From NCBI RefSeq assembly GCF_021155765.1, contig NC_060116.1, positions 11,222,001 through 11,286,000 on the forward strand: a DNA stretch of 64,000 bases, given 5' to 3'. Origin of the DNA: Diprion similis (lineage: Eukaryota > Arthropoda > Insecta > Hymenoptera > Diprionidae). The notes under the pieces are model-generated. The model made no database searches. It had not been told where the DNA came from and saw only the letters and a program-made list of their open reading frames with translations. This document shows positions 23,701 through 45,052 of this stretch, in pieces (position 1 is the first letter of the stretch; every line of letters starts with the position of its first letter). The translations under genes and the position numbers were made by a program.

Positions 23701-26452
23701 GTTTCCAGGTCATATTATACCTTCCTCTCTTCCCTTCTATCCTCGCCTTCTCTGCTGCCTGCCTCGTTCCTCACCTACACGAGAGCATCCTTCACCCAGT
23801 CGATAAACTACAGCCAACCGGCTGGTTAAATCTGCAGCAGTCTACCGAAATACCAGCGTATGAGCAAACTGACTCTATACTGTACGGTATAGGCCATGCC
23901 AGAATGTTGATTGATCATTATTTCTGTTTGCCCTACGAGATATGTACCTGCTGCTAACTGATTTATATACGAACATCGCTGGGTGTCGTCAGGGTAAATT
24001 TACACTGTCGAGTCGACTCAAATATTGAGGTTAATCACGATAATTATTCCCCAGACTTGATCAACTTCCAACTCCTATTGAGGCTCGATATCCGCATCCC
24101 TTTTTCAGCGCCGACGGAGAGTACGGAGTGACGACGATGACCAAAGCGGTGCTTCATCACACCGGCAAAGTGCTATGGACCCCACCGGCGATATTCAAAT
24201 CCTCGTGCGAAATCGACGTCAGATATTTCCCGTTCGATCAACAAACTTGCTTCATGAAGTTCGGTTCCTGGACGTACGACGGATTCCAGGTAAGAATTCT
24301 ACGATTCGCGGCTTCGTGGCTGGTTCAAACTAATTACGCCTCAAGGCCCAACAACCTTCGTATATCCTCATTCCCCCGTTGTTAACGACATGCCGCAGAT
24401 CGATCTGAAACACATTAATCAAAATATGAGCAACAACGTCCAGGTGGGTATCGACTTACGAGAGTACTATCCGAGCGTCGAGTGGGACATCCTGGGGGTG
24501 CCGGCGGAGCGTCACGAGAAATATTATCCCTGCTGCGACGAGCCGTATCCAGACATCTTTTTCAACATCACCCTCAGACGCAAGACGCTGTTTTACACGG
24601 TGAACCTGATTGTACCCTGCGTCAGCATCTCCTACCTCTCGGTCCTCGTCTTCTACCTGCCCGCCGACTCCGGGGAAAAAATAGCTCTATGTATCAGTAT
24701 CCTTCTGTCCCAGACGATGTTCTTTCTCCTGATATCCGAGATCATACCTTCGACATCCCTCGCCTTACCGCTCCTCGGGAAGTACCTTTTGTTCACCATG
24801 CTACTCGTCGGACTATCCGTTGTCATAACGATTATAATACTAAACGTTCACTACCGTAAACCGAGTACTCACAAAATGGCGCCTTGGGTGAGAAAGGTTT
24901 TCATACGGAGACTACCTAAGTTGCTACTCATGAGAGTGCCTGATGATCTTTTGAATGATCTTGCCGCCCACAAGATACAAGGCCGTGGTCGGAGTAGCAA
25001 GAAGAACAAATTCAACGCTGCTGTTGCTGCCGCTGCCCAAGCATCCTCTAGAGTGTCTTCTCCGGACTCGATGCGTCATCAGAGACCAGGTGGTGAGTAA
25101 GACGATGAACTTGTTCATTTTAATACATCCGATTCACGTATACTACCAAGATTCGTTAGACGGTAGACGGTTGTTGGTGGTGTTCCGAAGTTTCGTCTTC
25201 CCCTATCGGCAAGTCAGGATCACTCGGTGAAATGCTATGTTGTATGGAAGATTAACGATACAAGGAGATTGCCCGATCAGTCTTCAAAGGGCATGATAGA
25301 CGACAGACTGTTTGGGGGAACTAATCCACCGAGCAATTGCCCGAATGAAATTCTAAACACCGCTTTAACAACTGGATAATGCGGGAACTCACCTCGTAAA
25401 GTTAACTAAAACTTTGCTCGCCATTAAACAACGTGCGTAGTCTGATGTGACTTCATAAGGAAGTTCACTGTCTCTCTGGTTCCCCTGTCTGCCTGTCGTG
25501 CGCATCAATCATGAAAATGAGCACCGTATCAAGATTAGCTCCGCGTTGAACACTCCGAGCTTTGTATATATGTATATGTATATATATTCTTCCACATAGT
25601 ATACATATTTATGCGTATTATACAGGTATACATACTTATAATATAAGCGGAACGTAGGGTTCTGCGGGGACCTTGTCAAGTTAGCTTCGGTAAGATATCA
25701 CTTCTTGTCTTCTCGTAACAAATGGATCTTCTCTCCCTGACTTCGGTCCCTCGGCAGGTTGTACCGACCTTAGTCTATCGCAAAGTTGAAACAGAACTCG
25801 AGGTTGATGACGATCTTGATAGTTGTCTGCAGAGGACGACCGATTCCGAACGTCGAGCCGTCCGCCTGTTTCCATAACCCTTGAGAATATATCCATGGGA
25901 TGTGTTTGAGAATCGATTTTCAAACAGGGTGCAACGGGCTCCACACCACGACGGCGCACAACAGATTCTCCGGGCTAGTCGGTGCTTTCGGAGGTGCCAT
26001 CGGCGGCTACAACGGGCTGCCCTCGGTCATGTCCGGTCTGGACGAGAGCATGAGCGATGTCACTCCGCGGAAAAAGTATCCCTTCGAACTCGAGAAGGCT
26101 CTGCACAACGTCATGTTCATACAGCATCACATTCAACGACAGGACGAGTTCAACGCTGTAAGAAACACCCGGTCTGCGAACCCTACGTGGTTGACACCAG
26201 CGTCTTGTTAGCTTCGTAAGTTGATTTAAGTGACGTTATATATTACAGGAAGACCAGGATTGGGGCTTCGTCGCTATGGTGCTTGACCGGCTCTTTCTTT
26301 GGATTTTCATCATCGCCTCGATTGTTGGTACCTTTGCTATATTGTGCGAGGCACCAGCTTTGTACGACGACACTAAACCGATAGATATGGTTTTATCGTC
26401 CGTTGCTCAGCAGCAATTCCTACCACCGGACCAGGAACTCGTTCCAGTCTAG
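11676..26452 (+). CDS. nAChRalpha2: Nicotinic acetylcholine receptor subunit alpha2
   Basis: Cys-loop ligand-gated cation channel subunit of the neuronal plasma membrane that binds acetylcholine at cholinergic synapses. Coding exons: 11676-11855, 19854-19898, 21881-21990, 24109-24289, 24399-25092, 25928-26157 and 26249-26452; all joins keep frame, giving 547 aa. Visible features: signal peptide about 1-17; mature start [20 protein letters not shown]; loop [11 protein letters not shown]; Cys-loop C145-C159 with 13 residues between; loop B region GSWTYDG; vicinal cysteines C217-C218 (YYPCCDE), which make it an alpha subunit; TM1 about 236-258, TM2 about 267-289 with the preceding GEK, TM3 about 300-322; a long cytoplasmic loop; TM4 about 490-512. 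The [20 protein letters not shown] segment and the loop ending [10 protein letters not shown] match Drosophila alpha2 (SAD) as I know it, not alpha1. The fifth exon carries loop C and TM1-TM3 without introns, unlike the neighbouring alpha8. Confidence 0.97.
11856..19853 (+). other. Intron 1 of nAChR alpha2 (8.0 kb)
   Basis: GT at 11856 and CAG ending at 19853, with a T-rich tract before the acceptor. It contains T runs at 12473-12496 and 13501-13523 and a GAT run near 19092-19124. Open frames up to 131 codons (for example 17068-17463 on the - strand) are low-complexity and match no family I know. I see no nested gene. Confidence 0.8.
19092..19124. repeat. GAT trinucleotide microsatellite
   Basis: About eleven GAT/GAC units within alpha2 intron 1. 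Confidence 0.9.
19899..21880 (+). other. Intron 2 of nAChR alpha2
   Basis: Starts GTAAGT and ends TTTTTCAG. It holds a short AT run near 20340-20356. Nothing else was recognised. Confidence 0.85.
21991..24108 (+). other. Intron 3 of nAChR alpha2
   Basis: Starts GTAAGT and ends TTTTTCAG. It contains a short TA run near 22538-22551 and a CT microsatellite at 23653-23671. No nested gene is visible. Confidence 0.85.
25093..25927 (+). other. Intron 5 of nAChR alpha2
   Basis: Starts GTGAGT after a phase-1 codon and ends AAACAG. It has a TA/TG-rich patch near 25563-25640. Nothing else was recognised. Confidence 0.8.
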
Positions 26453-26832
26453 CCGGAAGAACTGTACTTTCGCGATTTTAAAACGCGCCTCAATCACGGC
26501 GAAATTATCATTCCTGACCTCGTTATGTCACCCATGTTACTATTCACCATTCGTAGAGAAAAAAAAAAATTTTCAATTTAGTGCCAACAATTTTGTCGAA
26601 AATAATTCTCAGACATATTTATAATAATTTGTCGAGTCGACGAAATAACTTTTAGAAGGTGAATCATGATGCCTCTGTATTTTTTTCGTGCTATTTATTT
26701 CCGACATTTTTGCTACATTCACACCTTTCGCATGTCTAAATTATATTGTTTAACTCCAGCTTCGGTATAATCAAGCACAATTTTTTTTTTTTTTTTTTTT
26801 AGGCTAAGGTTATCGCTTTGAAGGTCATGTAA

Positions 26833-26838
26833 AATAAA
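26833..26838 (+). terminator. Candidate proximal poly(A) signal of nAChR alpha2
   Basis: AATAAA about 380 bases after the alpha2 stop codon, within an A-rich stretch that makes a chance match likely. A second AATAAA lies at 27631-27636. Confidence 0.35.
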
Positions 26839-27630
26839 AAAAACCAACTTAGCGATCAATTAACTAAATAGACAAACTTGTGATTACCTTTATCTAGTCG
26901 TTTTCGCAGTTGATACACTCCCAGTCTCAAAAAGGCACGAGATTGAGATGTATGATGCTAGGAAACGAGGTTTTTTTTTTTTTTTTTTGAAAATAGGTTG
27001 AACTACACAAATGCTTACTGTAATGTGCAGATAGGATGAAAGTCGATCAATGGAAAATTTGAGCCATCGAATCATGAGCTCTTCGTTTGATCTGTGTATG
27101 GAAAATTACCCAAAGACACATCGGTACATAAAGAACGTTTATCGAGCCTTAACATTGACGGTGATAAATCGACAGTAGAATTATGTACGGGTTTATAAAT
27201 TTTGAATATTTATTCATTTCCAACGATACGGTTGTACGAAAAAAATCGAATGTCAGAATGAAACGGTGCCAATTACTTCAAAAGTATTATTAATTAGAAG
27301 AGAAAAAAAAAAAAAATAACGATTTCTGTGCATGTAACGTTAGAAGATATTCAATCAAATATCCACTAAATATGTACTCTTCGATGACCTAAAACGACTT
27401 ACAGACTGGGCTCAATTAGCGTAGCTGTAAATCTTGTACCTGCAGAGTCGCAGGACGAACGATGGTAAGAATGTGAGCGGAAAATTGTAACGATAAATAT
27501 TACAGTCTAACAAATGATGAATCAAATCTTTTCTATTTAAGCGTGTACCTACTTAGTTAAGAATTCATTTTAAAACTGTAATTTATTTAACATGTAATTA
27601 TTGTTATCAAAATGATATCGTCTAAGAAAG

Positions 27631-27636
27631 AATAAA
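27631..27636 (+). terminator. Candidate distal poly(A) signal of nAChR alpha2
   Basis: AATAAA in AT-rich DNA about 1.2 kb after the alpha2 stop codon. Use of this site would bring the alpha2 transcript to within about 400 bases of the alpha8 stop codon. Confidence 0.35.
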
Positions 27637-27990
27637 CATTATTCGTAATTAGCTTTCGTAAATACCTCGAGTTTTCGATTTTCGACTTATACACTGTTTA
27701 TTATCGAAATTGAGAAATAATTCAACTCTCTTAAATGTGCGTATATACATATTATACTAACACGCAGGTTGAATTTCGTTCATCGAAAGAATTTGATAAT
27801 CAATAATAAGATTAGGCGTGATTGAAAAACTAATCGGTTTTCAGTGAAATTAAATCTGCAGATAATCCAATGATTGATAATTCAATAAAAAAAATTACAC
27901 TGAAATTCGTTTAAGATAATATTGTAAACGTGTTTTCCGCATGAGTGAGGAGGGAAAAAATCCAACAATTTGGTTATTTTTTTAAATTTT

Positions 27991-27996
27991 TTTATT
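27991..27996 (-). terminator. Candidate poly(A) signal of nAChR alpha8
   Basis: AATAAA on the - strand, about 70 bases downstream of the alpha8 stop codon: a typical distance for a short insect 3' UTR. Confidence 0.5.
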
Positions 27997-28065
27997 GGCA
28001 TTGATTTCGTTGCAGTTTTTTAAGAATACAGTGATATTCGTTGATTACATTATGGGTAAAATTAA

Positions 28066-31000
28066 TTACTCGTCTGGCAAGAAGACTTCGGGCGGAAATA
28101 TGTAATTCCCTTTACGCAGGGGAATCCCGGAAAGCAATTGGTCCACTGGTTTCCGCGTATCGTAGAGGCTGGGTGCCTGAAAAATTATACCCATGGTGCC
28201 GCCGATACAGGCCAGGGTAAACACCCAGAGGAAGAATCTGTCCAAAACCATAGCAACAAACTTCCAGTCCTCGATCACCTAAAAACACACATTTTTATGC
28301 CGTGATATTATAAATATGGAACTCATCAGAGTTTCGTTTCCGGTTTCAATCAATCCCGAAAAGTAATTCAAAGATTCCTAATTAGTTGTCAGAGTCTTTA
28401 CTAAAAATTGCACTAAAAGCAGTTTTTCAATGAAAGTGGAAGCATCGCGTAGTTACAATTTGTTTTTCAGATTTGCGATCGGTTTCGTTGAATCGGTAAT
28501 CGATCCTGGAGGCGGGAACTACGTTAAACGGGCCCCAACAGTGAGCATATAAACGACGTTACACACGGAGGAAATGAGCCGTTAGCTAAAGTGATAGCCT
28601 AGGTGTTAGGTTTAACACGCTTTAATAACCTCGCGAGTAAACAGCGCAAGAGAAAAGTGCCGAATGTAACTGACAGGCAATTTATAATGAGGGTTAGAAG
28701 CCGAAAACTTGAACGACCCTGCAAACGCGTCGTCGAACATTTTAATAATTAATGTCCACCCCCTCCTCAGCATCCCGAAGTTTGAACGAGAATTTTTTTT
28801 CATCCCTATTTAACCAGACGGTGGAATTCAGTTTTGGCAGTCAAACGCTAACACGGAATACCTTCAACTTGCGTTCTCACCTCGTTGTCCTTGTCAGCGT
28901 CCTTTATGTGCTGGGCGATGAATCGGACTCCCTGAAGGGCGGATATTACGTCAGGAGATAAGTGCCGCGGCATCGTGTTCTCGCTGTCGGTTACTGAAAA
29001 GAGAACACATGGCACCTGATGGATCGCTCAAAAAGTGAAAAATCTTGGAAAAATCCATCATGCGAAGAATAACCGAAGATCCTCCGACTCGACGTTGGAT
29101 ATGAGACTCCTCGACCGAGTTTCCGTCTCGACCGTTTGAGCTCTCTCCTGGGATCGCACGCCTCGGTTCTATCCGATCGGCTTTTTCGGGGCTATTTAAA
29201 TTTGTCGAACAAGTATTGGCCCTCATCTGAACCCTCGACTCGCACTCCTGGTCCTCTTCACTCTAGGGGGTGCTAAGACAAGGGTGGCCAACTTTTTCTT
29301 CCATTCATTAGATCGAAGCCCCCGACGATTTTGAGAGGTTTCGCACCCTCAACCCCTTTTCCCGTCGTCCCCCTCCAGCAACACACCGTCAGCGCAGAGG
29401 CTATATTAGGCATCCCTTCGAACATGAAAGGAGCGGGGAGGGCTGATAAAATATTGAAGTTACCTTCCCTTTAACCGACGGTATCTTTATTAGCTACACA
29501 GTCTTATCCCGGCCTCTATATATATTTCATTTCCCTGCTAATGCAGCTCGTGTGATTATTTATTCACCACACATCGCAGAGCTATCCTAATTCCAGTATC
29601 TTTCCAGGTCCATATCTACAACGTTTCCGAGAATGAGACTTTATTCGCGGTTATTTCGACTATCGGAATACCCTTGAGTGTTTTTTATCACGGTATAAAA
29701 TTGATGTAAACCGACCTATGCAGATGTTCGAATAAACAGGATCTTGCTACCCAGATACGAAGGGGTGGGCGGAAATAGGGTTTCGCTCCTACCTAGAGGC
29801 TGGCCTAACGGTGTCGGGATAGTGACCCCCGTCCGTTTCCTATCATCCACTTTGTCGCAGGACTACCGTATACATCAATCCCCGAGATCTTTTACGACCG
29901 ATGTCGAGGTGACCAAGTTCAACACCCATGGGATGCGAGCGCGGCGCGGGTGGATTTTCAAGAGGGAGGTTTTAACGCCGGAGAGTCTTTATTTTATCCC
30001 TACTCTTTCCTTGTCGCTGCTGTTACTTCTGCTCCTTCTTATTCTTCTTTTTCCGCTGGTACGCTTTCGACCCTCGTTCAAGGGACGACGACGACGACGC
30101 TTCGCTAATACGTCAGAAAAATATCGTCCCCAAGAGATCCGGAGACAATTGCTTACATACCTGCTCTGTTTTAAAACCGTCTCCTTCTCTTCCTTCCTTC
30201 GTGAAACTTGGAGGTGAAAAAGTCTTCCCAAATATGCTACGCGGTTACGGTATATTCCATTTTAATTCCGCTTCAGGTTCCTTGAGACAAAAACTTGACA
30301 GACTCTTTCGCAGTATCATAACGCATTTTGAATTATGTCTCAATAAATTCGAGCCAAAGTTATTTTACGAATCAGTCTGCTAAACCGACCGTCAGTTTTT
30401 ATCCTTTACGAATATCGTGGCAAAGTAAAATACGATACCTAACAATCGTAATGGCAATTAGAACAGCATCAAACGTTACTTTTACCCAACCTATTAGTCG
30501 ATCGTACTAAATTTGCTCTCGATAAAACGTTTGACTCGCGTGTGTAGTTTTAACGGTCCGTGAAAATTTGACGTTTCGCAATAGCTGCGTGCGTTGATTA
30601 AAGTGGTCGACAACCACAGTCAAGCGAATAAGTGACGCTGCTATTGCAATTGATACATAAACCACGTGTGCACGCAAAGCCGCGATGAAATTCAGTTTTT
30701 CAATCACGACGATCAGCGCATGAAACGGCGGAAACGAATAGAGGGATGATTTTCACGGCGAGTCGTACGTAGCTCAGCCCCGAGTGACATGGCCGTGTCG
30801 ACGAGAAGGTGGGGACGGGGGTGAATTAAAGGGCTAGGAAATCAGGGGGTGGAATAAAAGCGGGTGGCTCGTACACGCGAGGCTAATTCAATTCGCATTC
30901 ATTGTTTTCCCCGCTGCAAGTACACAGACGCCGCCTCATTGTGCGAATTAAACCCAATGTTATTCCTAGCCCGCGTAGAAAATACGATTACGCCACCCGC

Positions 31001-34000
31001 TATTTGCCTACCTTTTCACCGAGTGTATAGATACCCTATATGTATATGCGTATGTATGTTCATGCATTATAAATATACGTAAGAGTTTGGGGTGAGAAAC
31101 AATTGCGAGGAACTAGTGCAAGCTGGAGTCGTAAAATAATTGGCACAACGCGATAACTCGAAATAAAATGCTGCGAAATTAGAGGCCTAGGTGAAATGAA
31201 AACCGCCCCCTCTTACCGGAAGCGTGAGGAACGTGTCGACCCTCTTCGTCGAGGGCGTTCTTGTAGGCTGCGGCCACGCTCTCGAAACCCTCGGGACTAC
31301 CCTTCAGCTCCGACGGATAGTCGCTGATGCTATCGCGGAAGCTGTAAGCAAACAATACACGGAAGTTGGAAAATGATACAAAGTTTGGTGGGTATATAGG
31401 TAGCCGGGGGTAGCCGCTGCACCCAGGATACCGATGCCAAAGCTGCACCGACGGCCAATTTGCCAGGATTACTTCGGATGATAAATCGTGTTTGGTAAAG
31501 GCCAACAAACCGGGCCTTCGCGAAACCTTTTCCCGGAGCTTTCCTTGCCTCCGTTTTCTCTACAGATGGCGAAAACTTTACTCGCCGCTGCCCCCCGATC
31601 TTCCCCGGGATCAAACTGATGTTACGGTTTTTCACCCACCGAACATTGATCTCAAAGCTGAACCAGCTAGCTTCTTTTTTCCCGGTTCATTTAACACCTT
31701 CAGCTTCCGCACCTACCCCAAAACAGATAGCCGTGCCCACATAACTCAAACTGAGTTGACGGATGGACTGAAGCTTGAACCCGGTGAGGTCGAAGAAAAT
31801 CCATCCGCAGGTGAGGATGAAAAAATTTAGAAATTTATAGGCAGCCGTACAGATTTGTAGCTCATCGGTTAAAATTTGAATACTTTGTAAAAATACTTTC
31901 AATAACAATTTTTAACGCGTTCACTAATAGTTTCAATGCCTTCGAAACTGATTTGCGTGTCCATTTCTAAGAAATGAGAAAAAACGGAGCCCCATATTTT
32001 CGGTATTATTTTCATCTCGTTTCAAAAGAATACCCATCGATTCGTACAAATCCATGAAAACTAGAAGTTTCAATACGTCTTGTAACGATTCCATGCGATT
32101 TTTATTTTTCATCTGACTAATTGTGCTTTTCTAACGTAATTAACACAAGATAGTTTTGAGTTTGTACAGATCTAGACTAAGCCATGAGAAACCTGGCGGT
32201 TTTACACTGAGAATGGCCGCTTGAATGTGCCATGCAGGACAATACAAAAAACTTCACCTTTACAAAGCTATGAAAATACATTCAGAGCAATTTTACATTC
32301 CTTGATCTACCTGTCTAAAAACGGTGTTGGCGGGCAGAAAAAGGAGATTTCTAATACAAACTAAATGCCCCGAACAGTAACTGATGCATTCATAAAATCC
32401 CCGCAACTTTAATCGTAATTAATTAGGAAAAGATCACGTCGCCTGCAGCCATAAGAAGAGGGGTAAGTTTTTTTCCCGCCGTTCAGCGGAACGTTGGAAA
32501 TCGATGCCTTCGGTAAACTCAACCGAAAGAAGACGGCGGGGCGAACAGATCACCGGGGAACTATTTTCTAGCAAGACAACTCTTGGGACTCACTTTTCGG
32601 ACTTGAGGAGCGAGCCTCCCGCGTGGGGTGGAAAAACAGCGAATGAAGAAAATCTATCGGGCCAATCAACCGCTCTCCCTCTTTTTCCGAGAACGATTCA
32701 AGCTGGTTCTGCACCACAAGGAGCAGAGATTAACCTCCGAGCCGTTTAATCGTTTCGACATGAAAAACATTCTGTCATCTGCGCTTTCGAAACTATCCTC
32801 TGAAACGTCTTACTATCCTTGCTCTATGAGAATTCATACGGTTGACGCAAAAATAGAATAGTAAAACTTTTTGACAAAACGCAAAAATCAGTTCAAACTG
32901 CGGGGCCAATGAACCAGGACTCGAAATTTCCAACGAAACCCTTTCCAAGATTTGGAAAATGGGATGGAAAACCGAGTGTCAAGATGCACGATGCGAGAGT
33001 GATTTAAACGATAAACGCTCCTCTTTCCGCCTTGATTAATTTCCCGCACTTAATTCCGCCTTTTGAGCATGCTCGGCTTCTCGTCTCAAGGATTTTCCTC
33101 AAAGCTACAGACCGTTATCCGAAAAATTAACAAATTATCACCGAGGGCCTGAGGCTAGAGGGTATCGCGACGTTTTCAACTTTTGGGTTTCTTTCTTTTT
33201 TCCTTCTTCATTTTCTTTTTTCTCACACCCACCTGAAGTCAATTTCGTTAGTGTATCCGTTGTCGATATAGGTGTCGTCGTACTCCGGGGTCGAATAGGG
33301 GGTCCGACGCATCATGAGAACGCGGGGCATCCAGTTGAGAAAAACTCGCTGAACCCAGGGCGACATGTTGTGGGTCGACGGTGACCTGCGGATCAGAGAA
33401 ATGGCCGGTTATCCCCGTGCGCGAAATAACCAAAGAAAGAGAGAGAAGGAGAGAGAGAGGGAGAGGAAATACCAGCAATACCCGTGGTTATATAATATCC
33501 GTCGGTTCATAATATCCAGCAAACTTTGAATATTATTCGCCTCACAAAGGCGTGCCTCATATCTACGTTTGACAAGCTTAACCCGGATCAAGGATATAGT
33601 TGAACGACACTGAACGGGGAGGAAAGTTTTTTTATTCATGAAGCTAGTTCGACTATACTGAAGAATCGTGCGTGCACCGTTACCTTGCAGAACCATAGAT
33701 TCACTATTCCTATTATATCTAGTCTGCAAAACTCAAGCTCAACTTTTTCTGCATCGAAAATAATTCCTCTATCTATCTCCATGTCTCTCTTATTTTTCGT
33801 TCAGAGAGGAATTTTCTCTTCCAGTTTCATTATCCCGGTTGAATATAAACAGCTTACACACATGTGATTCATATATTATTACATACATGTATATACACAC
33901 ACATATGGGCAGAATACGCGTCGGAACGGTAAACGGTGGAAAAACTTCCTTTTTCTCTTACCGGGAATCGCGGTATCAGGTGATTTCCCAAGTAAGAAAT

Positions 34001-37000
34001 GGTCCCAATACGCTGCGAGCAGCGCCTCAAAAGTTACAGCCGAAAAACTGGAGATTTTCGTCGTCATTTCTCTGCTGTTGGTCCTACGCTCTTTTCCATG
34101 TGTTTTTTGCGTTCCTGGTGGTCGAATTACTCTAGAAAGGGTCATACTAATCGATTCCGAGATGAAAAATTTCCGGCTCCAAAAATCGAAAAAAAACTAA
34201 GGCTAACCCCTTCGGATTTTTGGCGAAAATTTTGGCGATTCTGGAAAGTGCTGCAATTCATTTTTGCAGGCCCTATTCCGACGTAATTTTGCGAGAGGAA
34301 TCGATTACGCACAGTCCCAATACGCTGCGAGCAGCGCCTCAAAAGTTACAGCCGAAAAACTGGAGATTTTCGTCGTCATTTCTCTGCTGTTGGTCCTACG
34401 CTCTTTTGCATGTGTTTTTCGCGTTCCTGGTGGTCGAATTACTCTAGAAAGGGTCATACTAATCGATTCCGAGATGAAAAATTCCCGACTCCAAAAATCG
34501 AAAGAAAAATAAGGCTAACCCCTTCGGATTTTTGGCGAAAATTTTGGCGATTCTGGAAAGTGCTGCAATTCATTTTTGCAGGCCCTATTCCGACGTAATT
34601 TTGCGAGAGGAATCGATTACGCGCAGTCCCAATACGCTGCAAGCAGCGTCTTAAAAGTTACAGCCGAAAAACTGGAGATTTTCGTCGTCATTTCTCTGCT
34701 GTTGGTCCCACGCTCTTTTGCATGTGTTTTCTGAGTTCCTGATGGTCGATTTACTCCAGGAAAGGTCATACTAATTGATTCCGAGATGAAAAATTCTCGA
34801 CTCCGAAAATCGAAAAAAAACTGAGGCCAAAATTGGGCAAAACTCTGTAACTCGACGCGTTTGGCCCTGGAGGGCGAAGACCGGCGCCAGGTCAAGCTCG
34901 AAACTAACCGTCCGCGAATTTACAACTCCATAAAGAATCACCTGCCCCGTCTCCTCAGTTCCCTTCCTTCCCCCTTTTGGAGGAGCAGCTTTTGCAGGAT
35001 TCCGGGATTCGCAATCCTGGGGTGTCACACGGGGCCACTTTCCGGTCTCCGCCATCTTATTTCCGTCACACGTTACCTCGATATCCACTCATCTGATTCG
35101 GGGTGATATTCAACACCGAATATAGCTACGCCGCAGCGGCTAATCTAACGGAACAGATCAACCCCCAGAACCACCCCCTATTATAACGTCGAATTTCCTC
35201 CGCGCGGATCGAAGCAATTTACGCAAAATTGCATCTGTATGAGTTAATACATAATACAAAATTCTATTTTTACCTCGAGGGGATATTAAAATTCAATTCA
35301 AAATAATGCGCGGAAAAATTGTATTCGCACATAATCCCCTGGCAGGTTGAAACGTTCGAATTTTTAATAACCCTGGAATATAATCGGTGGAAAAAAATCA
35401 AGTCACGAAACTCGCACTCGAAATTTTATGCACCTCAGTGGTGTAGGCAACCGTAAATACTACGGCTTTTACTCGGAAACACCCTGTATATTCAAAGGAA
35501 AAATGCGCTGTCGTATATTCTCGAATTTGCCGCTCGATTCAAAGCCGAAATCCGGTCCCAGTGCGGTTGAATCGTTAGTGGAGCGTCTTAAGCTTCGGAA
35601 TCTACTTCATCCCCCCTCGAGCGGCGCACCTCCCATCGGATAATAAATTACAGGCAGTATAACGTGTGCTGAGTGACCCCACGGGACTCGTAAGAACAAC
35701 CGGGATCCCAGCTGGGTTTTCAGCTATGCCGATTCGGAGATTCGCCTGCAACGTCACGGACTCTTTACATCTACGTGGCCGAGGGTGAGAGCTGATCTTG
35801 CTCCCCGGAACCTTATACATTCCGCGATCCCACGCCCAATCTTACGCTGCACTTTGCGGTGCTGTGATTTACGAAGCACGGACGAAGGGACGTTAAGGGC
35901 TCGGCCGTTTCGTGACTCGATCCGAAATCACGAACCTCCGAGTTGATACGCGAGATACTTTCAAGAGCTGGGCTTGAAGTACCGTCAAAGTACTCACTGC
36001 TGTAAATTTGCCAACTTTGTTACAGGCACTAACAATGACCGAATGAGTTTGCTCTCGTATAGTGCCTAGGATCGTCACCAAAGCTGCTAGTTGATTTCTA
36101 ATTCATTGCCGCTTGTCGTTAACGACCCTCGTCATGATACCGCCAATTTTCAAGTCTTGACAACTCTCTCTCTCTCTCTCTACAATATACATATCATTAC
36201 GTAGACATGTATACGCTCACCAACCCCCGTTGTGTCTTACGTTCAAGCGAGAAACAGTGTTAGTGCGATGCTTCCGGTTCGTAAACTTCGGTACCAAAAG
36301 ATAGGGTTATACTTCGTTACGGTTTTCGAGGTGCCTCGGCTGCGCGGTACTTTGCTGTGATGAAAATTTACGAGCAGCCGAGATGCCTTCGTGGCGAGCC
36401 TTTGTGGCTCACCTAAAATGGACCTGATGGTGAAACGGAGTTAACGTCGTGCCAATGAGGTTCACGTCCGCAGCGATAAACCGCCTCGGTACCCCCACAT
36501 ACCTATACGCATCACATCGGCATACGTGTATGTAGCACGACGTAGGTATACAACGATTCAATTACAACTGTAAACGTGTTGGAGACAGATATCGTATCGT
36601 CTTTGATGTAAAGTCTCACATGCCAGTGAAACGTTCCATTTAGACCCGAAAACGATACACTGTACCTTGAAATTCGTCCGACAAGCCTCGGACAATTTAA
36701 TTTCTATGTCTCCGTATATTTTGATGTCTCTGACATTCACCTTAGTGGTCAGTTGCGTTTAATAGGTGTGAAAAATAATTATGCTTTTGACCCCCGGGAC
36801 ACATCGGCGAAATCTCACGGAATGCTGAAACAGGGCTGACCGGCCAACGTTGCCCGTGATTAACAAAGGGGTGGCCAACCCCGTTCTGCCCCCAGTGCCG
36901 TTATCCTAACAACTATCACACCCCTCCGGTATACCCGGACACCGGGAAAGGCTGGTTAACCACCCTCGGTTCTAGCGAGAACCTACGTCATCTGCAAGCA

Positions 37001-40000
37001 ACCCCTTTTCATCTCGTAGAGTTGTGATTTACAGGACTATCGATGGGTATAACACCAAAATGCCCTGCCTATATCGTACCGTATCAGCAATTTCAGGCTC
37101 ATCCTCTTATCCGCACGCCCAGAAAATATTCTCTCGCAATATTTCGTTCGGGTTCGGTTAGTAGCTGTATAAGCAGGGAATCCGAAGACCCGCGAATATA
37201 AAATTGCAACCCAACCATGACTCAGAGGAAATGATAAGCTGCTCACGAATCGTGAGGAATTATACTTGGAAATAATTTGAAAATTTTTCAATATCTTCAA
37301 CACTTCCTTTTTTTCTCTATTGGAATGTATACGATGCATTTATATTATTTTCATGGACGATATTTAGAAGCAATAACGGTTAAGCGGACCGTACGTCAAA
37401 CACTACAAAGGGCGCCTGTCTCGCGATAAAAAGTCTTAAAATCCATTGTGAAAGCACTATAACGTGAAAGCGCGAGCCAGACGCTCATTCTTCGATTCGT
37501 TTATACTACGAACGGCTCTCCGTTATCTCTTCATTCGTCATCCTTCACTATGGTCGGTGTCTAGACTTTTCTCGTTGCGTCAACTATATACAAATTTTGA
37601 ACGGTACGTCTATAAATCCTCGTGGTTATGTTTTATTTCAAATTCTTCAAGGACTTTGATTTCTATTCATTTTCCAGCTTAATTTTTTATTTTTCAATAA
37701 TCAATGACGGGGTGTAAAAATAATTATTTCCAATTATGTCGTGAACTTACCTGAAGTGGACGTTCAGTACGCAGACGGTGACCCAAATTGACAAGGTGAC
37801 GAGTATCATGGTGAAGAGCAAGTACTTCCCGAGCAAAGGTACGGCCAGTGATGTCGGTGGTATGATTTCGGCGAGAAGTAGAAAGAACACCGTCAATGAT
37901 AGGAGGATCGAGGCGCAGAGGGCGACCTGTGCATACGAAAGTTTTTTCAAATTTAACCCGTTCACGAAGTACAAAGATCGCTTTCTTTCAAACTGTTATT
38001 GGCCACACGTGCCTTTTCCCCGGAGTCACTTGGCAGGTAGAATACGAGAACGGTCAGGAACGTGATCCCCACACACGGAATTATCAGATTTACCGTATAG
38101 AAAAGGGTTTTCCTCCTCATGGTGATGTTGAAGGTGATATCTGAAACACAAACAGTTACCAAATCGATCGTTGGCCATACTCGGGATAGCAGAATTTAGC
38201 AGAACCATTTTCGCATAAACATTCCAAACCTCAGCTTACAAACCTCAGTTCCACACACAAAAATACTGTATTTTCGCTCTGAAAGCTCTGTTTCCAGTTC
38301 TCACCATCGAATTTTCACCACCGCGATAGAATAAAATCTAAAATAATAGTAGTAGTAGTAGTAGTATAATAACGATAATGATCCGCCAAACTGCCCCTGA
38401 AACCGTTTGAGCACTACAGGAACGATGCTGCATTACTCACACGTATAATCGGCTAATGTGATGACATTAGTTAGCCTATAATGACGCCATGGTTATCAGA
38501 AATCAGGGGGCAAAGACCGGCGTTGCATTGTATCCGCCAGCTTATTGTTGGCCAAGAGAGATTGATCGAAGTTAAATAGACTCGGACGATGTACTGTAGG
38601 CCAAACCTCATCATCGGATGGTCGGGTCACTTGGACCCGAGGTCTTAGAGCTTTGGCAAATCGATCGCTATTCACGTGAGACCCATTGACTACAACCAGC
38701 AGTCGAGCCTCCGGACAAATAGTGGCTTGATCATCCGTAACTCAAACATTTATCTTAATTAACCCAGCCGAAGTCAGAAACAGTTTACTAAACATCCAGT
38801 CTGCGATGAATAATCAAATGAATGAAAAGGTGCACGTTATCCAAATTAGTACCAACATTTTTCCGAAACTCATAGCGAACGATGGGACATACTTAAAGGT
38901 ACAACACATTAGGAATAAGAAACCTTAGAGTGAGTTCCCTTCTTTTATGGTTTTGGATAACTAAAGATGAAAGTATGTTGACCATTCTTGGATGAGAAAG
39001 AGACTCGTGGGTTAAGCTTGGCATCTGTTCTGTATACTTAGAATCTGCTTCGGTCGGTACGTCTGCTTTGCAACTTTTCTGCAACTGCATTTATAGTACA
39101 ACAATACTCTACCCGAAGAGCTTGCGGACTCACTTGACCTCTTCCATGGGTTTTGAACATTGTCCAAAGGGACCAGACTTTGCTACGGCCGGTATTACCG
39201 ACCCGTAGTATCTCACGCAAGGAAACCCGGATGGAGTTGAATACCCACCAGAGTAGGGTTCGGTACAGCAAGGGTAATACTCTTCGTTGCGAGCTGCTGG
39301 TACCTCGAGAATGTCCCATTCCACCGAAAGGTAAAACTCGGATAGGTCGATACCAACGTGGACCAAGTTGCTGCCAGAAACTTGTTCCATGTGCTTCAAA
39401 TCCACCTGAAAGGAACAAAAATGCAAGAATGGAATGTTACTTTTTCGTGGATAAAGTATGGAATGAAACCTTCGACGCTTTTGATCGATCTGGTGTTGTC
39501 TCACCTGCACACCGTTGTAGGTCCATGAACCGAATTTCATGATGCATGACTGTTCATCGAAGGGAAAATACTCTACGTTGATCTCGCAGGAAGACTTGTA
39601 TATGGCTGGTGGCTTCCAAAATACTTCACCGGTGTACTTCAGGGTCGCCTTTGTCATCAACGTCACTTCATAATTTCCGTCTGCACTGAATTCAGAATGC
39701 AGAGCTTTAGAAATTGCTCCAGAAGCATTATCATCTTGTACATCAAGGTAACACTGACAGAATCTATAGAGCAGTCTGCACTGTTTACTGACTAATTTCA
39801 CGATCAGGGTTCAATGACTATCGGATTTGCGCAGCGTTGAATTGAAAGTGACGTAAAATGAAGAAACGCAAGATTATACACTTTGTAAAGACTTACTTGT
39901 TGTAAAGAACGATGTCAGGTAACCAGATGTTTTCTGAAGGTACATAAAGCATTTCTACGCCGCCGTATTCGTCCGGATCCCACCGCAGCTTGTAGTCGAA

Positions 40001-40872
40001 CCATTTCTACACAACCGTGAAACAACGTCATGATAAAAACGGGTTATTAGATCAGTGGAACATCGTAGCGTAAGTAATTCTTTGTTCGAGCATTCAAACT
40101 CAAACTATATTATTGCAAAGACTCTGATATCCGCTCACTTCAAGAATTGTAATTGTTCAGCGATTGGAACTTCGTTAAAATTCTTTCTAATCCAGTCTTA
40201 TTTCAAAACACTTTCCCGCTCACCTGCTCGACCCATACGTTTGTAGTCATCACCTGGTTCTTCAGATTCTGCAAAAAGGTAGTAAAAATATCACTGTAAT
40301 GTCTTGACTAGTAACGACCATAATTCCGCCTAGATCATCATATTAACGAAAAAACACTCACCATTTCTATAAGCTGTGACAACTTCAATCCTAGCCAGAC
40401 GGTGAGAGTTTCAGTGTTATTATTAACTGGCCGAATAAGTCGGTTGTAATTAGACAACAAGTCATCGTACAGCCGTTTGGTATCAGGATTAGCTTCGAAA
40501 GTTTTCACCACGGATTTCCCTAAGAAGAAAAAGTTAGTAGTTCAGTTATATGGACAGACTCACGTGGATAAAATGACGGTTGAAATGGAGAACAAAAATT
40601 GAAGTAATTGAAGCCGAGCCATGCAGATCATCATACTTGACAAAACCAGGTGTTTAACTATCCACTTCAAATCAGATGATTTAATTAACAATCAATCGAA
40701 AAGTTTTGAGTAAGCTCGCGGATCAAAACAAGCCATTCGCAATTGATAACGTCAACCATGATCACGTTAAGCAATATACTTTGAGCAAATTCTCTGAGAT
40801 TTCACGTGTGTCTTACTCACCGCTTGTTACGCTCAGGGAAAAGAGCAGGACAAGAAAAAGACGTTCCTTCAT
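28066..40872 (-). CDS. nAChRalpha8: Nicotinic acetylcholine receptor subunit alpha8 (orthologue of fly beta2)
   Basis: Cys-loop acetylcholine-gated cation channel subunit. Coding exons in transcript order: 40872-40821, 40519-40362, 40268-40224, 40006-39897, 39685-39505, 39405-39249, 38140-38013, 37926-37751, 33385-33233, 31341-31217, 28993-28881 and 28278-28066; all phases agree, giving 536 aa. Visible: signal peptide about 1-18; [20 protein letters not shown]; Cys-loop C155-C169; vicinal cysteines C228-C229 (YYPCCTE); TM1 about 247-270, TM2 about 278-300, TM3 about 311-333; a cytoplasmic loop beginning [12 protein letters not shown]4 about 474-497. [13 protein letters not shown] and the ending [11 protein letters not shown] are typical of Drosophila beta2 (SBD), but fly beta2 lacks the vicinal cysteines; bee and beetle orthologues that keep them are called alpha8. 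Odd point: exon 7 ends AAG|GC, so intron 7 is GC-AG. The gene is tail to tail with alpha2. Confidence 0.96.
28994..31216 (-). other. Intron 10 of nAChR alpha8
   Basis: Canonical GT-AG. A long open frame at 29744-30217 (+ strand) runs through a CT-rich tract and has no recognisable domain. No nested gene is supported. Confidence 0.75.
31342..33232 (-). other. Intron 9 of nAChR alpha8
   Basis: Canonical GT-AG; the donor is GTGGGT just below 33233. Nothing else was recognised. Confidence 0.75.
33386..37750 (-). other. Intron 8 of nAChR alpha8 (4.4 kb)
   Basis: Canonical GT-AG. It contains the 312-bp tandem repeat at 34003-34838, followed by a GC-richer, repeat-like segment to about 35110, and a CT run near 36165-36182. 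No gene was recognised. Confidence 0.8.
34003..34838. repeat. 312-bp tandem repeat, about 2.7 copies
   Basis: Three consecutive copies start at 34003, 34315 and 34627, each opening TCCCAATACGCTGC. The spacing is exactly 312 bases both times, and the copies differ by scattered substitutions. The third copy stops after about 210 bases at a short A run and passes into unrelated sequence. Open frames inside the unit repeat with it and carry no recognisable domain, so the unit looks non-coding. It lies in alpha8 intron 8 and could be a piece of a dispersed repeat or satellite family. Confidence 0.92.
37927..38012 (-). other. GC-AG intron 7 of nAChR alpha8 (86 bases)
   Basis: Exon 7 must end ...GGGGAAAAG and exon 8 begin GTCGCCCTCTGC to join the conserved DSGEK to [11 protein letters not shown]. 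The first intron bases are therefore GCACGT, a minor-class GC donor with an otherwise consensus AAG exon end; the acceptor is GCACAG. The only nearby GT (GTGTGG, four bases into the intron) would shift the frame. Confidence 0.85.
38141..39248 (-). other. Intron 6 of nAChR alpha8
   Basis: Donor GTGGGT, acceptor TTTCAG. It contains a TAG microsatellite at 38346-38365. Nothing else was recognised. Confidence 0.8.
38346..38365. repeat. TAG trinucleotide microsatellite
   Basis: Six to seven TAG units in alpha8 intron 6. Confidence 0.85.
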
Positions 40873-41637: not shown

Positions 41638-44600
41638 TTATCGTGACATGCCAAAGCGTAGAGCGCGGTTTCGGGGCACAAGGAAACGCTCCTTCGTCAA
41701 CAGGGATAAAAGCTCAGCGGCGGTCATAGGAGGCCTCGAAATACCTGAAATTAACGAAACATATTTGTTAAATACTGCAAATTTGTTTATCGTACACAAG
41801 TTTTATATGTAGCTCTTTTTTAGGGGTCAAAATGCCCATAAAATTTCTTACAGTTACAAATTAGCAGGCAATAGCGAAGGTGTCAACTCTCTTTTACACG
41901 TATACTGTTATTGCCAGTCTCCACCCACGCGGGACTGCTTTTATGCGTTAATAATTACGAGTGAACAACAATGATAGTTCAATGTCGGACGGAGGCTCGG
42001 TGTTTGGATCATCCGATCATTATAAAGTTTCTTTTCTGTCTCAGCTTTATTGTCGGTTTCCTCTTTCGACGCCATTTTCGTCTCTCATTAGGTACTGTTA
42101 CCGGATATTTGGCATCGAGGATAACCCTCGCAGCGATTAATCATTTTATTAATTGGCTACGAAATTAGAGTTTGAAAATTAGGCAGCTGAGATGTACCAT
42201 CAATCTACGGTCACATGTAAAATCCTTAATGCCGCATGACTTTGTTCCATATATATCACATCACTTCCGTACCTTGGACAATATGATGTAATATATAGAT
42301 TTAACCGTTGTAACAAATGAGTGTAATATTTGTTACGCGGACGGTAATTTTTTACGTGCTAATTTAATTCCACAAAAGATGACGTAATAATATTTAATCT
42401 GAACGGATATATGATCTCTTTTGCTATTCGGCCACAGCGAAAACTCTATTCAATTTATTCGCTGTTGACGCGCGCTCGCTAAATCTCCACCAAATTTTAC
42501 ACGCAAACGCACGTGGTGAACAATTATTCACGTAATGCGCACTGTACGTATGAGTATCGATTTCTATTATTGACGGTAAGCGCAACGCGTAATACATACT
42601 TTGTTTGTTTCGATAGGAGAGTCTTCGCGGTGCCGAAAATCCTGAACGGGTATCCGGAGGGCTGACTCCTCGGAATCGGGCCACCGGATGATAGGGCAAA
42701 TAACGTTTCGTCGAAGGCCTAGACGGAGGAGAACTCGGCCACATACGAAGCATAAATCGGCCAGTCGGCGACTCCTGTAACCGCTTCACAATAACATCCT
42801 CCGTTGGAACTTCCCAAATGATCTGCGGTGGTGAGTCTGAAAATGCAAAGTCAATATTTGATAAGATTAACAGTTCGGAATTGATGAGCAATTGGTGTTT
42901 CGCACTTTCTCATTTTTCTTCAAAAAAAAATACACGTCAGTTGTTTTTCACAAATATCAATATTGCGAAACATATATTTTTTCCGCCATTTTTATCGAGT
43001 CCTGTATTTTTATGAATTTTCTCATAAAATCTTATACATTTCCACCGATCGACTCCGGCCGTATTTTACGAGAGTCAGTTTTATTTCAACTCTCCAGTGA
43101 CGGCTTCGAAGGCCTGGAATGCCATCTGCGTGTATTTGAAAAGGGAGGTGAACTGTGACAGTAAAACCGTATCATCAAACACTCTCTGAAGACGCACAAG
43201 GAATTCGTGAAAAGCTCCTAAAAATAGACCCTATAAAAGAATTATTGAAGATTCTTCATAGGCGTAGGACTCTATCCAGGTTGTTTGAACTATCGAGCGT
43301 AAAATTTCAAATTTGGCAAACGATTGAATCGACACCTTCGGCACACCTCCATTTCTACACAACCTGCATTACAAAGTACATTAGAATTGCAACACACATC
43401 ATGATTTTCAAATTTCTCTTCCTGCGAGAAATTTCGACTTTTCACCCCCCCTTAAGTTCAACCCCGCTTATTTGCCTTAACGTTCCTTGCCCTGTTTCCA
43501 CACGCAGGACTTCACAAATGAGATAAAGTTGGTATCGGCACGGTCAGACCAAACAACAATACGTTTCCCGAACACTATCTGTCGCCCATTCAACACCTCG
43601 GAGAAGTGTCCATAGTGAAACTGGAGCGCATTTTATACGCGGCAAGTCGTGTCCGCAGGGGTCAAGAAGAGCGATGTTGTCAGTACGTTTTAAATTATTA
43701 TAGAGGATGAGAGAGCGAGGTTGTGGTTACACGCTAATGCAAGTCGAGACTATAAATAATCGACTAATTTACCCATCCTACACGATACGTACCTACGTTG
43801 GCACAAGAGTCAGTCAGCGACGAACTTACGGCGAACGGATAAATCTTAATAGATTGCGCGCACGGGACAAACTTACTTACTTACTTAGCTCGTATTACAC
43901 GTTGTACTTTCATCCCATTATATCCCGTCGCCGAATAAAGAGACGCGCGTGTTTGACTCTTTGGGAGTCGAAGATTGAGAAAGAATTTTTCGTAATATCT
44001 CCCTTCTTCCCCTACATTTCTTTTCGCCGCGGACACTTAGCTTAAAAGCGTCGTCACGGCGGTATATCAACAGCAGGAGTTTCGATTGATATCGAAAAGA
44101 CAGAGTGTTTATATTGCAATGAAAACAAGGGAAAGAATTTAATTGAAAGTTAATTTTAGACGCTAATATTTGTACTGGCTTTGATTTCTATTCGCTTGGT
44201 TCGACGAGGAATTGAAAAAAGTCCTTCTTTCTTGATCAGGCGGAAAATAATTAATGATTTTGTGGTTGCCAGTGAATATATTAGTGACAAGAGAAGTGGA
44301 AGTCAGCTTCACCGAATAATATTTCATTACAAGTTCAGCAAAAATAAATAAATAAATAAATATAATGTGCAAAGTATTATACGTGAGAATTAAGGCGGCG
44401 CGAAATTCGACCGATTATAACTCAGTTCCTAGCCACTTTCCACCGGGTCTACAACAACTGTATAAAACTATTATGGAAAATCTCAAGTTACACTCGTCCT
44501 CTTATAATCATTCCTTCCGGCGAGACAATTGGAGTACCCAAATTGCGCGTCGTGGTACAGAAATGCAGGAAATTTTGATTAGAGAATGCACCGCCTGCGC

Positions 44601-44849
44601 TGAGTCTATTTTCATCTTCATCGCCGATATATATTAACGGGTAAAATATGCACTCGGTGCATCTCAAGTGGACCAAATTCGTTCTACTCCCAATGATAAA
44701 CTTGCAGGCAAAATTTTGCACAAGAAATAAAACTTTTTCGAGCTATTCAATGAGCAGGACTCACCGTAAGGTACGTAGTACGGTTGGACGAATTCAAAGA
44801 CGTGGCAAAAGACGAGGACTCCGAGGACGGGTATCAGGGCGTTCCGCAT
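41638..44849 (-). CDS. Unrecognised secreted Pro/Arg-rich peptide precursor
   Basis: Three coding exons, 44849-44765, 42836-42600 and 41744-41638, with good GT-AG sites and matching phases (1 and 1), give 142 aa. The first about 22 residues (MRNALIPVLGVLVFCHVFEF) form a signal peptide. The rest has no cysteine, about 16 prolines and an excess of basic residues (roughly 21 K/R against 8 D/E). KR pairs after DVIV and PST and an RR after SAP are possible convertase sites that would release QPYYVPYDSPP..., LQESPTGRF... and YLPYHPVARFRGV... pieces. No Gly-Lys/Arg amidation signal follows any of them; RFG near the C-terminus is followed by MSR and the stop. I know no family with this sequence. Alternatives are a neuropeptide-like precursor, a proline-rich antimicrobial-type peptide, or a small secreted or cuticular protein. 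Confidence 0.75.
41745..42599 (-). other. Intron 2 of the secreted peptide gene
   Basis: GTATGT donor, TTTCAG acceptor. Nothing else was recognised. Confidence 0.7.
42837..44764 (-). other. Intron 1 of the secreted peptide gene
   Basis: GTGAGT donor, ATTTTCAG acceptor. It contains an ACTT run near 43873-43888. Short coding-like patches near 43061-43350 have no recognisable similarity. Confidence 0.7.
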
Positions 44850-45045
44850 CTTGAATCGGCCCGAAGAAGCTCGAGGAATCCAAGAGGGAACTGCGTCCAG
44901 ACTGACAACGAGCAACTGGTCTACAGAGGTCGAATTGGACGAGAGAAGAGATACGTTTTTGGTCCGCTGAGGACGAGGACCGGTAAACTTGTGATGCGAT
45001 GATTCAGAGCGCGGAGGCTGCGACTATCTCGCACGTATGCCCGAA

Positions 45046-45052
45046 TTATATA
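45046..45052 (-). promoter_or_regulatory. TATA-like box of the secreted peptide gene
   Basis: TATATAA on the - strand about 200 bases upstream of the predicted start codon. Transcription would start near 45015-45025 and leave a leader of about 170 bases. AT-rich motifs are common in this DNA, so the support is only position. Confidence 0.3.

Follow-up and report, generated by a model that had tools for sequence, protein, structure and literature searches.

Introduction

Insect neuropeptide catalogues have been built mostly by homology (PMC7596734), so an orphan precursor devoid of classic amidation sites would be missed. The same source lists the NVP-like putative neuropeptide of Hymenoptera, a precursor for which no receptor is known, a description that would also suit the candidate gene reported here. 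PMC6585902 gives the proctolin pentapeptide as RYLPT. Our candidate carries RYLP at residues 73-76, but the fifth residue is Tyr instead of Thr (RYLPY, residues 73-77) and the motif is located inside the precursor. In the proctolin precursor, RYLPT lies directly behind the signal peptide. Membership in this family was ruled out, as no RYLPT directly follows the signal peptide of the candidate.

Neuropeptide F (NPF) has a short secreted precursor, as is predicted for the candidate, and the E-L to R-F spacing, compared by eye, is equal in exon 3. In contrast, the RFG of the candidate is unamidated, its parts are ordered differently, and its intron position differs. The profile PF00159 gave three matches in the genome under study, one of which exceeded the cut-off (51.1 bits) and is the proper NPF gene on contig 3, which resembles honey bee NPF, but it had no match at the candidate locus. 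In this genome the NPF exon closes with RF, which is not so for the candidate exon. NPF membership was ruled out by the unmatched profile, and the C-terminal RxRF/Y-amide was not found.

Abaecin and the other insect proline-rich antimicrobial peptides are small, basic, Pro-rich and secreted, with a mature part free of cysteine, as is predicted for the candidate. The candidate is longer, however, carries neither the PRP nor the PFNP motif, and has no match to PF08026 (bee antimicrobial peptide), to which an abaecin-like gene of the same genome scored 23.2 bits, just below the cut-off of 25. Abaecin membership was also ruled out, as the candidate matched no Pfam family at E values up to 10 and the abaecin-like gene sits on contig 10.

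A three-exon gene model between COG1 and an nAChR subunit gene

We analyzed a window of 64 kb, comprising bases 11222001-11286000 of contig 12, in a genome of 269 Mb assembled in 60 contigs. The NPF gene and the abaecin-like gene of this genome indicate a hymenopteran. The order of genes on the minus strand is COG1, the candidate and an nAChR subunit. The first exon of COG1 is located at 52704-52568 (-); the long COG1 exon alone matched no Pfam family, but with the joined first exons PF08700 was matched at an E value of 1e-16. The minus-strand nAChR subunit is coding from 40872 and contains the ligand-binding domain PF02931. We take this subunit to be alpha8 and the plus-strand subunit near 24 kb to be beta1.

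The original prediction placed three phase-matched exons with coding lengths of 85, 237 and 107 bases in this interval, and these were confirmed on the minus strand (Table 1). The spliced product comprises 142 residues followed by TAA, both introns are in phase 1, and the AATAAA noted about 70 bases past the stop is present. Without exon 2 the frame is preserved, and the computed product has 63 residues. We also considered the candidate as a 5′ exon of nAChR alpha8 and rejected this assignment, as the signal peptide of the latter gene is encoded by a separate exon (40872-40821) and the candidate possesses its own stop and AATAAA. Candidate exons 1-2 could in theory be spliced in frame to nAChR exon 2, as both are in phase 1, but this was unsupported.

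Table 1. Features of the candidate gene and of the two genes compared with it. Positions are those of the window unless a segment is named.
Feature	Position	Strand	Description
TATATAA, candidate TATA box	45046..45052	-	~30 bases upstream of the putative transcription start
Putative 5′ leader	44850..45022	-	173 bases, no ATG, GC 0.54
Exon 1	44765..44849	-	hydrophobic N-terminus MRNALIPVLGVLVFCHVF..., encoded in 85 bases; donor GTGAGT in phase 1
Intron 1	42837..44764	-	1928 bases, GC ~0.40
Exon 2	42600..42836	-	237 coding bases, phase 1-1, in-frame skippable, Pro/Arg-rich
Intron 2	41745..42599	-	855 bases, GC ~0.38
Exon 3	41638..41744	-	107 coding bases including TAA stop; ...MTAAELLSLLTKERFLVPRNRALRFGMSR; short predicted helix
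AATAAA	41564..41569	-	69 bases past the candidate stop
Second AATAAA	41512-41507	-	further past the candidate stop
Neuropeptide F first exon	1390-1611 of segment L004, contig 3	+	ends at RF, ...EPDPMARPTRPKVFTSADELRRYLDLVKDYYSLNGKARF
Abaecin-like gene	1462-1782 of segment L025, contig 10	-	MKTALVLFFLILGSVMLTQAYIDRTSIGRPRPGGTGGTFPTFPGTGPFNPRPRWPDAYV...

For the splice-site matrices, 14 donors and as many acceptors were picked by eye in the neighboring COG1 and nAChR alpha8 genes; the donor matrix omits one nAChR intron that seemingly starts with GC. The candidate donors, GTGAGT and GTATGT, scored 9.2 and 5.7, compared with 4.6 to 11.7 for the real neighbor donors in leave-one-out scoring, and the candidate acceptors, TTTTCAG and AATTTCAG, scored 11.8 and 8.6, compared with -0.4 to 10.6 for the real neighbor acceptors. 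Among all GT sites of the window the donors rank in the top 0.5% and 3.8%, and among all AG sites the acceptors rank in the top 0.07% and 0.9%. In strength, the candidate splice sites match those of the neighboring genes.

Upstream of exon 1, transcription would start near 45022, with the candidate TATA box about 30 bases upstream. The window has 11 minus-strand copies of TATATAA, corresponding to a chance of ~4% per 250 bases; the looser TATAWAW has 111 such copies and would be unremarkable. At the length of the putative leader, 8.5% of minus-strand windows are free of ATG. TATATAA and the ATG-less leader of 173 bases are compatible with a promoter, and scans of the window or the promoter for Rfam families, tRNAs and bacterial promoters gave nothing useful. 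The GC content is 0.53-0.54 in the candidate exons versus 0.38-0.40 in the introns, an excess that is weak for each exon, as 4 to 8% of non-coding segments reach the same level.

Similar gene models in shuffled and genomic DNA

We scanned DNA for all models in which an ATG precedes a hydrophobic first exon, the second exon stays open over at least 150 bases and a third exon holds the stop, amounting to at least 120 residues in total. The hydrophobicity threshold was 2.2 (candidate value, 2.9), and the splice thresholds of the strict setting were fixed post hoc just below the candidate's own scores. At this setting, only the candidate and nAChR alpha8 emerged as start loci in the 64 kb window, and no model was found in 60 whole-window shuffles or in 150 local-composition shuffles. 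With the acceptor threshold at 5.7, the same two loci were obtained, and 15 of the 150 shuffles had at least one model (2 of 150 with AATAAA). Loose thresholds gave eight start loci in the window and at least one model in 98 of 150 shuffles (34 of 150 with AATAAA).

The scan was also applied to 15 stretches of 10 kb, taken from seven contigs of this genome. Both the strict and the middle setting matched one place with two start codons, and the loose setting matched nine start codons in 3 of the 15 stretches. The sole strict match in this 150 kb of other genomic DNA is located inside an SLC12-like transporter gene, which was assigned by sub-cut-off Pfam matches of its pieces (AA_permease, SLC12) and by neighboring frames judged by eye. 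The strict scan caught this gene but missed its true start because the model begins at an inner Met. Since models are common in shuffles at loose thresholds, the case for the candidate rests on splice-site strength: it stands far above chance when sites as strong as its own are demanded, and the margin narrows when the splice sites carry less weight.

Codon usage gives no confirmation of coding and is not decisive. Exon 1 scored within the top 0.7% relative to non-coding windows; roughly one in three non-coding windows scored as high as exons 2 and 3, which are thus indistinguishable from non-coding DNA. The training set for these exon-level scores had a slight flaw in that it included 17 intronic codons ahead of an nAChR exon, and the set used for the whole-frame and per-codon scores was free of them. 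The synonymous codon score of the whole frame was -0.5 bits, above 94% of non-coding segments and under all 17 control segments (overlapping segments of one exon each of COG1 and nAChR); frame +1, at 8.0, scored above frame 0. Per codon, the candidate scored -0.01, the NPF exon -0.05 and the abaecin-like exon 0.04, the range of the training exons being 0.02 to 0.21. As the NPF and abaecin-like exons are equally low, the codon score does not discriminate short secreted genes here.

Searches for relatives

The candidate appears to match no family in the collections searched, namely Pfam, PDB, the viral and prokaryote collections and the text of open papers. Pfam gave no family for the whole protein, exon 2 or exon 3 at E values up to 10, in line with the earlier view that no known insect neuropeptide or antimicrobial family is represented and with the absence of an NPF profile match at the locus. 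PDB returned two matches for the candidate, which were not meaningful (best E 1.6, one of them a kinase), and no chain matching residues 66-100. None of 23 pattern matches in viral contigs and none of 108 in prokaryote genomes was confirmed, and these negatives say little because neither collection is expected to contain insect genes. Fourteen candidate peptide strings were absent from the text of open papers, and topic searches of literature listings retrieved no description of the candidate gene, which by these searches would be undescribed.

In its own genome (E up to 0.001), the candidate matched itself alone, and both exon 3 (E up to 10) and the whole locus searched as DNA gave the self-match only. 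A second match of exon 2 on contig 4 (E 0.018), which has stops inside, was taken as chance, since only an Arg/Ser-rich stretch aligned. The candidate gene is single-copy. Its locus is unique in the 269 Mb and is therefore no repeated element, which rules out a mobile element.

Predicted product

Residues 4-18 are strongly hydrophobic, with a Kyte-Doolittle value of 2.9 over the 11 residues of the core, and this N-terminus suggests that the product probably enters the secretory pathway. The signal peptide had been called clear, which holds for its hydrophobic core but not for its cleavage site. By the -3/-1 rule for signal-peptide cleavage sites, the only good site falls after Cys15, and the site ahead of the QPYY region is poor. 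Cys15, in the signal region, is the sole cysteine of the protein, and the mature part is indeed cysteine-free. The protein is rich in Pro, Arg and Ser, containing 18 Arg and 4 Lys, and residues 23-142 have a pI of 11.2 and a charge of +13.

Three dibasic pairs, KR46-47, KR72-73 and RR99-100, are all encoded by exon 2. The KR/RR sites of the original prediction are thus present, but they are not enriched, as 3.5 pairs are expected from shuffles of equal composition (P = 0.73); KR alone occurs twice versus 0.58 expected (P = 0.095). Internal repeats or paracopies were not found above shuffles (P = 0.76), the repeat score lying under the shuffle mean. The dibasic count is at the level of composition and therefore lends no statistical support to processing into peptides, a claim that was not borne out.

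Amidation had been denied altogether. No Gly stands ahead of a dibasic pair, and for dibasic sites the statement is true, but it missed the Gly-Arg at residues 54-55 (exon 2), a possible, weak monobasic amidation site. RFG at residues 137-139 is followed by MSR and the stop (RALRFGMSR-stop) and is not amidated because no basic processing site comes directly after the Gly. AlphaFold, run on exon 3 alone as a single sequence of 34 residues, predicted a helix at residues 8-16 with a mean pLDDT of 69.

Possible functions of the candidate

The candidate is very probably a real gene, and its likeliest functional reading is that of a secreted peptide precursor, to which we assign a probability of about 0.45. 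A three-exon hymenopteran gene between COG1 and nAChR alpha8 would be transcribed from its own promoter, and the signal peptide would be taken off in the ER, leaving a strongly basic, cysteine-free product of ~120 to 127 residues. Furin or prohormone convertases might then cleave at KR46-47, KR72-73 and RR99-100. Cuts at these pairs would yield basic peptides of 24, 25 and 42 residues and an N-terminal piece of ~30, which may act extracellularly. In the earlier interpretation, the part concerning a real secreted gene without a family match agrees with the splice sites, promoter-like features, shuffles and family searches; peptide processing and a neuropeptide or antimicrobial function did not gain such agreement.

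The exons could also be chance frames in non-coding DNA or parts of a long non-coding RNA transcribed from a promoter of its own. This would fit the codon usage of exons 2 and 3, which is no higher than that of non-coding DNA, the whole frame that beats just 94% of non-coding segments, the frequency of such models in shuffles at loose thresholds and the absence of a homologue among the searches. However, none of the 150 shuffles gave a model at the candidate's splice strength, the strict setting fell only within genes in real DNA elsewhere, the GC content is raised in all three exons, and TATATAA and AATAAA are suitably placed, all of which make a non-coding origin improbable. If the gene is real and its product secreted, the protein might work uncut as a basic disordered component of a cuticle, silk, egg, seminal or salivary matrix, the dibasic pairs being just a by-product of the 18 Arg and 4 Lys. 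The compositional level of the pairs, the lack of paracopies, the richness in Pro, Arg and Ser, the confinement of the single Cys to the signal region and the failure to match any family all point this way. Structural secreted proteins usually contain repeated motifs, but here no repeated motif was found and the internal repeat score lies under the shuffle mean; we consider an intact protein the next likeliest functional reading after the precursor, if on the unlikely side.

A proline-rich antimicrobial precursor, from which furin would free a basic peptide such as YLPYHPVARFRGVSPPDTRSGFSAP that enters bacteria, is suggested by residues 61-92, which are basic, cysteine-free and Pro-rich (8 Pro in 32 residues), by the KR immediately ahead of YLP and by the existence of an abaecin-like gene in the same genome. 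The YLPxxP start is reminiscent of YLPRP, which forms the core of pyrrhocoricin and oncocin. Nevertheless, such a role is hardly probable, as the whole protein lacks PRP, no Pfam family including that of abaecin and no PDB chain for residues 66-100 was matched, and the abaecin-like gene is a different one located elsewhere. A derived NPF/NPY family member, with AEL...ALRFG as its C-terminal part, would fit the E-L to R-F spacing of exon 3, which is identical by eye to that of the NPF in this genome. This is very improbable: the profile finds the NPF gene on contig 3 but not the candidate locus, exon 3 has no Pfam family, the Gly of RFG is without a following basic residue and hence not amidated, the segment closes the precursor rather than trailing the signal peptide, and the genome's NPF exon stops at RF while that of the candidate does not.

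Within the favored reading of a secreted peptide precursor, the candidate could be the first-seen member of a family of largely non-amidated hymenopteran or insect peptide hormones. The conserved ligand would be the helix peptide of exon 3, ISRPPMTAAELLSLLTKERFLVPRNRALRFGMSR, and skipping of exon 2 would produce a 63-residue precursor containing it alone; we judge this version unlikely. If orthologues exist, the candidate would readily supply a putative ligand for orphan receptors. If there are none, it would be another lineage-specific secreted gene, such genes being common.

Other features of the window

The two nAChR subunit genes in the window are convergent (24294-40872), one on the plus strand near 24 kb and the other on the minus strand from 40.9 kb down, and this pair may be an old subunit cluster. 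In nAChR alpha8, the intron at 37927-38012 seems to start with GC, not GT (GAAAAG|GCACGT), and by eye is apparently a GC-AG intron. A tandem array at 34002-34827 consists of 2.6 copies of a 312-base unit with 95% matches. The same unit is also arrayed on contig 13, among the two scored of 3007 candidate matches, and may represent a dispersed satellite family.
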